A stretch of 56,369 bases of DNA from Candidatus Hydrogenedentota bacterium (GTDB lineage Bacteria; Hydrogenedentota; Hydrogenedentia; Hydrogenedentales; CAITNO01): NCBI GenBank assembly GCA_029776995.1, contig JAKOTZ010000103.1, positions 1-56,369 on the forward strand, written 5' to 3'. The position numbers were made by a program, and so were the translations under genes. The notes beneath the pieces are model-generated. The model saw nothing but the letters and a program-made list of their open reading frames with translations. It was not told the origin of the DNA and ran no database searches. Shown here one piece after another: positions 16,507 through 18,560 of this stretch (position 1 is the stretch's first letter; the number at the start of each line of letters is the position of its first letter).

Positions 16507-17322
16507 TCAGCCCAGCAACGAAAGCGCTGTTCTGGGCACCACGTTCGCCTGAGCCAGTATGGATGTGCCCGCGTTGACCAGGATCTGGTTCCGGGTGAAC
16601 CGGATCGTTTCCTGGGCGATGTCCGCGTCCCGGATCGCGCTCTCAGAAGCCGCCGCGTTTTCTTCCTGGATCGCCAGGGTGTTGATGGTGAATTCGAGGC
16701 GATTCTGGTAGGCGCCCAGGGTGGAGCGCAGGTTGTTGACGCTGCGCAGGGCGACGTCAACGGTGCTGATGGCCGATACAGCCAGGGCCATGCTGGATAC
16801 GCTGACGTTGTTCACGCCCAGGTCATTGGTTTTGGCTCCCTGCACGGCCACCGACAGCGTCTGGCTCGTGTAGGCGCCCACCTGCAGTGTGATGGTCTGC
16901 GAGGCGCTCAGCACGGCCACGCCGTTGAAGTCGGTCTGCAGGGCGATCGCGTCGATCTGGCCCAGCAGCTGGCTCACCTCCGTATTCAGCGCCGCGCGGT
17001 TGGCGTCGCTCTGGGTACCGTTGGCGGCCTACACCGCCAGTTCGCGGATGCGCTGCAGGATGTTGGTGGTCTCGCTCAGGCCGCCTTCCGCGGTCTGCAC
17101 CAGGTTGATGCCTTCCTGGGCGTTCCGCTGCGACACCTGCGAGCCCCGCACCTGGGCGCGGAACCCTTCGGCGACGGCCAGTCCCGCCGCGTCATCCCGG
17201 GCCCGGTTGATCCGCAGCCCGCTCGACAGGCGCTCCAGGCTCCGGTTCAGGTCCGCGCTTGAGGTCCGCAGGTTGCGGTTCGAATTCAGCGCGGCAATGT
17301 TGGTGTTGATGCGCAGTCCCAT
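16507..17322 (-). pseudogene. Flagellin, second copy, with a single in-frame amber codon
   Basis: The frame is the same length (816 bases) as the intact flagellin upstream and nearly identical over its 3' two-thirds. It starts [14 protein letters not shown] with a strong AAGGAGGT ribosome site. At 17029-17031 a TAG replaces the CAG (Gln) seen at the same place in the intact copy, splitting the protein into 97 residues and a 173-residue remainder. No other disruption is visible. The remainder still ends with a flagellin C-terminus ('ADIAQETIRFTRNQILVNAG'). This fits a very recent nonsense mutation, an assembly or base-call artefact, or readthrough. The C-to-T change that makes the stop sits beside a second difference from the intact copy (TCC to GCC). 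Confidence 0.85.
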
Positions 17323-17346
17323 GGTCTTACCTCCTTGATTGGTTCT

Positions 17347-17367
17347 GGCCGGGCATCCCTCCCGGCC
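17347..17367 (-). promoter_or_regulatory. Leader hairpin with AGGGATG loop, predicted CsrA site (flagellin copy 2)
   Basis: On the mRNA strand CCGGGAGGGATGCCCGG forms a seven-base-pair stem (GGCCGGG/CCCGGCC) with loop AGGGATG, 25 bases before the ATG. The loop matches the CsrA core ANGGA. The ribosome site downstream (CAAGGAGG) also contains ANGGA. Another AGGGAT lies at 17397-17402. The same arrangement is found at the intact flagellin. Confidence 0.6.
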
Positions 17368-17450
17368 GGTTTTGGGTTACCTCTGCCCGAACGGTTATCC
17401 CTTCCGTCCGGACGTTTTTATGTTCACCTCCTTTCCATATCATGGGTTCA

Positions 17451-17481
17451 CCCCGGACCCGCGGGAACGACGGGTCCGGGG
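17451..17481 (-). other. Strong hairpin between the two flagellin genes
   Basis: Perfect 11-base arms (CCCCGGACCCG at 17451-17461 and CGGGTCCGGGG at 17471-17481) with a nine-base loop lie 31 bases after the first flagellin stop. There is no T-run on either side, so this looks like an mRNA-stabilising or attenuating 3' structure rather than a simple terminator. It would still allow readthrough into the second flagellin. Confidence 0.7.
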
Positions 17482-17511
17482 AATATGGCCACATTCAACT
17501 GACAGATCCGA

Positions 17512-18327
17512 TTACCGGAGCAGCTGTAATGCCGTCTGCGGAAGCACGTTGGCTTGAGCCAGCACGGAAGTGCCCGCGTTGACCAGGATCTGGTTCCGGG
17601 TGAACCGGATCGTCTCCTGGGCGATGTCCGCATCCCGAATCGCGCTCTCAGAGGCCGCCGCGTTTTCTTCCTGGATCGCCAGGGTGTTGATGGTGAATTC
17701 GAGGCGGTTCTGGTAGGCGCCCAGCGTGGCCCGCAGGTTGTTGACGCTGCGCAGGGCGACGTCAACGGTGCTGATGGCCGATACAGCCAGGGCCATGCTG
17801 GATACGCTGACGTTGTTCACGCCCAGGTCATTGGTTTTGGCTCCCTGCACGACCACTGCCAGCGTCTGGCTCGTGTAGGCGCCCACCTGCAGCGTGATGG
17901 TCTGCGAGGCGCTCAGCACGGCCACACCGTTGAAGTCGGTCTGCAGGGCGATCGCGTCGATCTGGCCCAGCAGCTGGCTCACCTCCGTGTTGATCGCCGC
18001 GCGGTTGGCGTCACTCTGGGTGCCGTTGGCGGACTGCACCGCCAGTTCGCGGATGCGCTGCAGGATGTTGGTCGTTTCGGTCAGGCCGCCTTCCGCGGTC
18101 TGCACGATGTTGATCCCGTCCTGCGCGTTCCGCTGCGACACCTGCGTGCCGCGCACCTGGGCACGGAACCCTTCGGCGACGGCCAGTCCCGCCGCGTCAT
18201 CCCGGGCCCGGTTGATCCGCAGCCCGCTCGACAGGCGTTCCAGCGAACGGTTCAGGTCGGCGGTTGACGTCCGCAGGTTGCGGCCCGCGTTCAACGCCGA
18301 GATGTTGGTGTTGATCCTCAGTCCCAT
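17512..18327 (-). CDS. fliC: Flagellin
   Basis: The 271-aa protein is a compact flagellin made almost entirely of the conserved terminal domains. N-terminal '[18 protein letters not shown]' and '[20 protein letters not shown]' form D0/D1, and C-terminal 'NRLEFTINTL' and 'SAIRDADIAQETIRFTRNQI' form the matching helices. The central variable region (residues about 130-190) is short, as in Bacillus Hag. It would be exported by the flagellar type III apparatus and polymerise into the filament. A perfect sigma-28 promoter lies 207 bases upstream and GGAGG precedes the ATG. The long leader carries three GGGA-loop hairpins. It is followed by the second flagellin and a FlaG-like gene. Confidence 0.97.
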   Translation of the reverse strand: MGLRINTNISALNAGRNLRTSTADLNRSLERLSSGLRINRARDDAAGLAVAEGFRAQVRGTQVSQRNAQDGINIVQTAEGGLTETTNILQRIRELAVQSANGTQSDANRAAINTEVSQLLGQIDAIALQTDFNGVAVLSASQTITLQVGAYTSQTLAVVVQGAKTNDLGVNNVSVSSMALAVSAISTVDVALRSVNNLRATLGAYQNRLEFTINTLAIQEENAAASESAIRDADIAQETIRFTRNQILVNAGTSVLAQANVLPQTALQLLR

Positions 18328-18353
18328 AGTTCAGTCCTCCATGAGTGTGTTAC

Positions 18354-18479
18354 GGCGCATCCCTGCGCCAGGCCCAGCACAATCCGGCGGCGCCAGTCCC
18401 GTTGGCGTCCCCGGGTTGGATCCGGCCGGTTCCCGCGGCCGAACCCGCAACCGGCTGCTTGCCGGGGTGTCCCTACCCC
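18354..18479 (-). promoter_or_regulatory. Flagellin leader with three GGGA-loop hairpins, predicted CsrA-binding region
   Basis: On the mRNA strand three five-base-pair hairpins are seen. At 18354-18369 GGCGC/GCGCC has loop AGGGAT, embedded in CAGGGATG, a match to the core of the CsrA consensus. At 18391-18407 CGCCA/TGGCG has loop ACGGGAC. At 18464-18479 GGGGT/ACCCC has loop AGGGAC. The first hairpin is 27 bases before the start codon, and the ribosome site ATGGAGG also contains ANGGA. This resembles the hag leader of Bacillus controlled by CsrA and FliW. Confidence 0.6.
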
Positions 18480-18533
18480 ACAGCCGGGTCGCTTCAACTT
18501 TTCTTTGGGTACCTTCCCGGTCACCCGTCTTAT

Positions 18534-18560
18534 TTATCGGCAGCTTTAGCCAAAACTTTA
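18534..18560 (-). promoter_or_regulatory. Sigma-28 (FliA) promoter
   Basis: On the minus strand TAAAGTTT (18553-18560) is followed after exactly 11 bases by GCCGATAA (18534-18541). Both hexamer-plus elements match the sigma-28 consensus perfectly. It points into the flagellin leader and is expected to drive flagellin, the second flagellin and the FlaG-like gene. Confidence 0.93.

Follow-up and report, generated by a model that had tools for sequence, protein, structure and literature searches.

Covarying GGA-loop hairpins in the flagellin leaders of Hydrogenedentota as probable sites of a CsrA-FliW switch

Flagellin genes and their leaders in the window

The window, i.e. the whole stretch of 56,369 nucleotides analysed here, comes from a 3.4-Mb metagenome-assembled genome of a Hydrogenedentota bacterium; by a 98% flagellin match, its nearest named relatives belong to Candidatus Hydrogenedentota. 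Its minus strand, on which all features described below are located, carries two tandem flagellin genes and FlaG. Flagellin 2 (fla2, 17512..18327) is intact, encodes 271 aa and matches both Flagellin_N and Flagellin_C of Pfam. Flagellin 1 (fla1, 16507..17322) has Pfam matches to both halves as well, with one in-frame TAG inside (17031-17029), where flagellin 2 has CAG (Gln); this TAG is either a genuine nonsense mutation or an assembly error. The third flagellin of the genome is found on another contig (G000:C226, leader L036). Its leader is short and of the sigma-28 type, and contains a related hairpin, GGCC-GA-TGC[AAGGAG]GCA-AA-GGCC, with a 2x2 internal loop.

The leader of fla2 extends from the promoter (18560-18534) to the AUG at 18327 and contains five GGA-loop hairpins and the Shine-Dalgarno (SD) site CATGGAGG. 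The promoter, TAAAGTTT-N11-GCCGATAA (18534..18560), agrees with the sigma-28 consensus at 16/16 positions, and its description as perfect in the first-pass annotation is accurate. HP1, GGGTG[accgggaagg]TACCC (18507..18526), is located near the 5' end of the transcript and has a loop of 10 nt rather than a hexaloop. HP2 (18451..18487) consists of an outer 7-bp stem, CCGGCTG/CAGCCGG, and an inner hairpin, GGGGT[agggac]ACCCC (18479-18464); it is also matched by the covariance model described below (E 0.0011). It is followed by HP3, TTCGGCC[gcgggaacc]GGCCGGA (18421..18443), and HP4, CGCCA[acgggac]TGGCG (18391..18407). HP5, GGCGC[AGGGAT]GCGCC (18354..18369), has an ANGGAN hexaloop and represents the -35 hairpin, found about 35 nt before the AUG; it covaries within the family and scores 51.5 bits (E 2e-16) with the covariance model, in whose own training set the sequence sat. 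The SD region CATGGAGG with the AUG (18325..18344) matches the CsrA consensus CANGGANG, which overlaps the SD. The leader has GGA at about -190, -145, -106, -72 and -35, then in the SD, with successive GGA about 45, 39, 34, 37 and 22 nt apart.

The fla1 leader has two GGA-loop hairpins and an SD site. Its -35 hairpin, GGCCGGG[AGGGATG]CCCGGCC (17347..17367), scores 46.3 bits (E 1.4e-14; sequence in the training set), and the second, upstream hairpin, CCGGACGG[aagggataa]CCGTTCGG with the loop AAGGGATAA (17387..17411), is supported by the same-genus comparison. The SD region CAAGGAGG with the AUG (17320..17338) also matches CANGGANG. Further upstream, between the two flagellins, lies a GC-rich inverted repeat, CCCCGGACCCG...CGGGTCCGGGG (17451..17481), without a T-run behind it. 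The hairpins, SD sites and sigma-28 site named in the first-pass annotation are all present on the minus strand where it placed them, and both ribosome sites overlap ANGGA as it proposed. It undercounted the hairpins, since the fla2 leader has five rather than three, and lacked the elements at 18526-18507 and 18443-18421, the outer stem 18487-18451, the fla1 hairpin 17411-17387 and the third flagellin.

Conservation of the GGA loops and covariation of the stems

Both leaders fold better than shuffled sequences (z -2.5 for fla2 and -3.2 for fla1), in line with the folding check suggested in the first-pass annotation. The excess of GGA loops in the single window leader is modest: its three loops were reached by 3/500 shuffles with stems of at least 5 bp and by 35/500 with stems of at least 4 bp. 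The count in the leader of a same-genus genome (G001) was reached by 0/500 shuffles. Since the window leader on its own gives moderate support, the case rests on the comparison between genomes.

In G001, GGGA is kept in all loops. Among the 49 leader pairs compared, 35 are identical, six show double changes, seven show single changes that still pair and one is broken, i.e. 48/49 remain paired. Two of the double changes are located in the outer stem of HP2 and two in the upstream hairpin of fla1, while HP3 and HP4 have one each. HP1 keeps 5/5 pairs, with one G-U replaced by G-C. HP2 has an invariant loop and loses one inner pair, whereas its outer stem carries the two compensatory changes. HP3 additionally has two single consistent changes, and HP4 and the upstream hairpin of fla1 have one each; the loop of this fla1 hairpin retains GGGATAA.

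The same pattern extends to the phylum, for which we used a set of 111 non-redundant Hydrogenedentota flagellin leaders. No trimer is more strongly enriched in the hairpin loops of this set than GGA (122 observed versus 30.5 expected). An ANGGAN hexaloop is present at -44 to -31 in 105/111 leaders, counted without selection on pairing, and the SD region corresponds to CANGGANG in 106/111. The distance from the loop GGA to the SD GGA is 21-25 nt in 88/105 leaders. Stem pair 3 beside the hexaloop is a standard pair (G-C, C-G, U-A or A-U) in 100/105 leaders versus 43.6 after shuffling, and 71 stems of at least 5 bp form in the native leaders, compared to an average of 17, and never more than 27, over 200 trials in which the 3' arms were swapped between leaders. 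The covariation score of 75 hairpins is 0.622, compared to 0.212 after shuffling, and no slid version exceeds 0.195; because the sequences are related, such shuffle counts are not probabilities. The covariation alignment omitted leaders without a simple stem, while the arm-swap, hexaloop and pair-3 counts included them. In about 19 leaders, including that of the third flagellin, the stem is of a variant form interrupted by a 2x2 internal loop (CCGATGC[ANGGAN]GCAAAGG). Thus, in orthologous leaders the stems vary with covariation whereas the GGA loops are retained, bearing out the earlier observation that loops are kept where stems differ.

Rows of hairpins are found beyond this genus: six Hydrogenedentota leaders have four scored hairpins each, with other genera represented by, among others, L030, L032, L069 and L014. 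The enrichment is shared by leaders from other phyla, including Bdellovibrionota, Planctomycetota and Desulfobacterota, with 80 GGA loops versus 17.8 expected and 43/68 stems versus 7.2 after arm swapping, so the core arrangement is general. In Rfam, no cis-regulatory family matched the leaders above threshold; a weak SorX match on the opposite strand was below gathering.

Flagellin specificity of the hairpin-SD element and its co-occurrence with csrA and fliW

A covariance model built from the -35 hairpin and the SD was run on 60 genomes. All matches at E <= 1e-6 (79/79) are located directly upstream of a flagellin gene, and the flagellin-less genomes of the family yielded background matches only, the best at 1.4e-4. 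In the genome studied here, no non-flagellin match of the model that could mark another CsrA target rose above background, and the best one (G000:C223) is without the hairpin. Two genomes of one genus, G054 and G056, stand apart with 28 and 18 matches, far more than the other genomes; the weak ones among them may constitute a repeat family. In one AT-rich genus, stand-alone leader-like elements were observed (L165, G029:C8:69021-69064; L166, G034:C43:19180-19223; L167; L168). These elements comprise a GGA-loop hairpin, or an SD with ATG, are conserved between genomes and are followed only by tiny unconserved ORFs; possibly, they are stand-alone CsrA decoys or gene remnants.

Search for csrA and fliW, a check suggested in the first-pass annotation, found csrA directly after fliW on contig C13 of this genome (82.7 bits for CsrA, 122.3 bits for FliW). 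The CsrA protein is 84 aa long, contains VHRMEVY with the RNA-binding residue R at position 44, and has a C-terminal extension. Its best match among solved structures is 5dmb_D, i.e. CsrA in complex with FliW, to which it aligns through residue 71, the extension being judged by this alignment as a whole rather than by individual FliW contact residues. FliW also matches 5dmb. Among the 60 relatives, csrA and fliW are found in an identical set of 38, and 15/15 flagellin-less genomes of the family are without either gene. The few mismatches concern G001 (94% complete), in which flagellins and kept hairpins are present and csrA and fliW were not found, the less complete G032, G050 and G056, with flagellins and neither gene found, and G059, in which both genes but no flagellin were detected. 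These cases probably reflect incomplete assemblies; since the two genes are adjacent, their absence from G001 may reflect a single missing contig. The occurrence of csrA almost exclusively alongside flagella suggests that flagellin control is the main task of CsrA in this lineage.

A predicted CsrA-FliW-flagellin switch

We consider it very probable that the leaders contain the CsrA sites of a CsrA-FliW-flagellin homeostasis switch. This reading is built on the sequence and structural elements, which covary and are confined to flagellins, and on the co-occurrence with csrA and fliW. One CsrA dimer would span the GGA hexaloop and the SD GGA 21-25 nt downstream, keeping the ribosome off. Free FliW would strip CsrA from the RNA, and cytoplasmic flagellin would bind up FliW, such that translation would halt upon flagellin build-up and restart upon export. 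The FliW-flagellin partner switch as such is established, and one CsrA dimer can bridge sites 10-63 nt apart, with an optimum of about 18 nt (PMC7652899). The loop-SD spacing and every GGA-GGA gap in the fla2 leader fall within this range. In fla2, the first and sigma-28-driven gene, the four further GGA hairpins, 34-45 nt apart, would probably load extra CsrA dimers, resulting either in tighter repression or in an abundant mRNA that acts as a CsrA sponge. The switch proposed in the first-pass annotation is supported by the presence of csrA and fliW and by the kept loops, so that neither of its two refuting conditions applies; CsrA binding, repression and relief by FliW, as well as the role of the extra hairpins, are predictions.

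A CsrA-FliW system acting on a flagellin leader is reportedly known from hag of Bacillus subtilis, in work attributed to Yakhnin in 2007 and Mukherjee in 2011 and 2016. The CsrA sites of hag are BS1 at 51-55 and BS2 at 75-82 (PMC8523840). The leaders described here resemble hag in having two CsrA sites, one upstream and one overlapping the SD, about 25 nt apart, with FliW as the antagonist and a CsrA with a C-terminal extension. Unlike in hag, with two sites in all, the predicted site pair is repeated in Hydrogenedentota before each of several tandem flagellins, and four additional GGA hairpins are present in the first leader of this genus. The flaA leader of Campylobacter jejuni has two GGA hexaloops 21 nt apart (Dugar 2016, PMC4894983); in C. 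jejuni, FliW is the main antagonist and CsrA binds chiefly flagellar mRNAs. The flaA leader is thought to bind one CsrA dimer, whereas the first leader in the window is predicted to bind up to three. In having many GGA sites within one RNA, this leader is comparable to Escherichia coli pgaA, with six CsrA sites (PMC7652899), and to the CsrB/RsmZ RNAs, all of which involve other genes and antagonists, whereas the present row is on a flagellin mRNA of a FliW-type organism. Accordingly, the earlier description of the sites as unusually dense holds for flagellin leaders, given two sites in hag and flaA, and not for CsrA targets in general. No report of this switch in Hydrogenedentota was found in the literature searched. 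The core is a known circuit in a further phylum, an uncultured one, with strong covariation support, and the row of extra sites is a variation on it. The leaders also provide a natural library of about 100 predicted CsrA hairpins.

Alternative explanations differ in how well they fit these data. It is conceivable, although we lean the other way, that the upstream row of fla2 serves chiefly as a CsrA sponge, similar to the flaA leader or CsrB RNA, timing the other flagellins beyond self-repression. The flaA mRNA does titrate CsrA (PMC4894983), and for the window's leader, in which a sigma-28 transcript carries five GGA hairpins and the SD, a sponge role is a candidate; the six leaders with four scored hairpins each point in the same direction. 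However, the row is missing from many first flagellins, 16/32 sigma-28-led leaders having no simple GGA stem within the last 110 nt. Stable hairpins in 5' leaders often influence mRNA stability. Nevertheless, a different purpose of the hairpins (mRNA stability, RNase or ribosome-standby sites, or another RNA-binding protein), with GGA loops being incidental, is improbable, because conservation resides in the loop rather than stem sequence, the loop is the CsrA/RsmE hexaloop with CANGGANG as its partner SD, and csrA tracks flagellin. Chance hairpins in GC-rich leaders, for which only the shuffles of the window leader taken alone would speak, are a practically negligible explanation, already refuted by the arm-swap and covariation controls together with the six double compensatory changes and the single broken pair in the sister species.

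An orphan Shine-Dalgarno element between the flagellins

The spacer between the two flagellins contains an additional element, GGAAAGGAGGTGAAC (17422..17436), which resembles an SD with no start codon or ORF behind it and is kept in the same-genus genome. Such orphan SDs, GAAAGGAGG, recur in the phylum some 110-150 nt upstream of the AUG of flagellins preceded by another flagellin, and in most cases no ORF follows. The inter-flagellin spacers often have the same order of parts, namely, stop codon, GC-rich inverted repeat, GAAAGGAGG, a variable part, the -35 hairpin and the SD. AAGGAGG occurs 22 times in the leaders versus 2.0 expected. Among spacers of at least 150 nt, 34/45 have a match of at least 7 nt to the anti-SD complement versus about 3.6 expected, where the matches assume a standard 16S tail, the 16S gene not being found in this assembly. 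The orphan SDs, mostly at -113 to -149, match over 8.6 nt on average, compared to 6.3 nt for the true SDs, and their matches to AGAAAGGAGGTGATC reach 14 nt.

Short upstream ORFs were rejected as an explanation: in a first scan, a start codon was in range at 5/25 AAGGAGG sites, and the peptides, of 5-29 aa, are mostly unrelated. The element is reminiscent of the STAB-SD of Bacillus thuringiensis cry3A, located near -129 (PMC4113751), which is likewise an SD-like sequence without a translation start. However, no RNase J, the exonuclease stopped by STAB-SD, was detected in either this genome or its relatives: with TIGR00649, none was over the cut-off in the own genome and none was found at E <= 1e-50 in 45 genomes, with 10/14 controls positive. 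This disfavours a STAB-SD of the RNase J type and raises the question of what allows long untranslated spacers to persist in a lineage in which RNase J was not detected. Alternatively, since AAAGGAGG resembles a CsrA site, the orphan SD might itself be one. We tentatively propose a new kind of composite leader, itself rather doubtful, in which the orphan SD would be a 30S parking site guarding the spacer from decay or termination while CsrA shuts the start codon, and the hairpin row would be a CsrA reservoir. In the leaders from other phyla (L082-L132 without L102), AAGGAGG is found at -31 to -34, i.e. at the position of the -35 hairpin, in a dozen cases.
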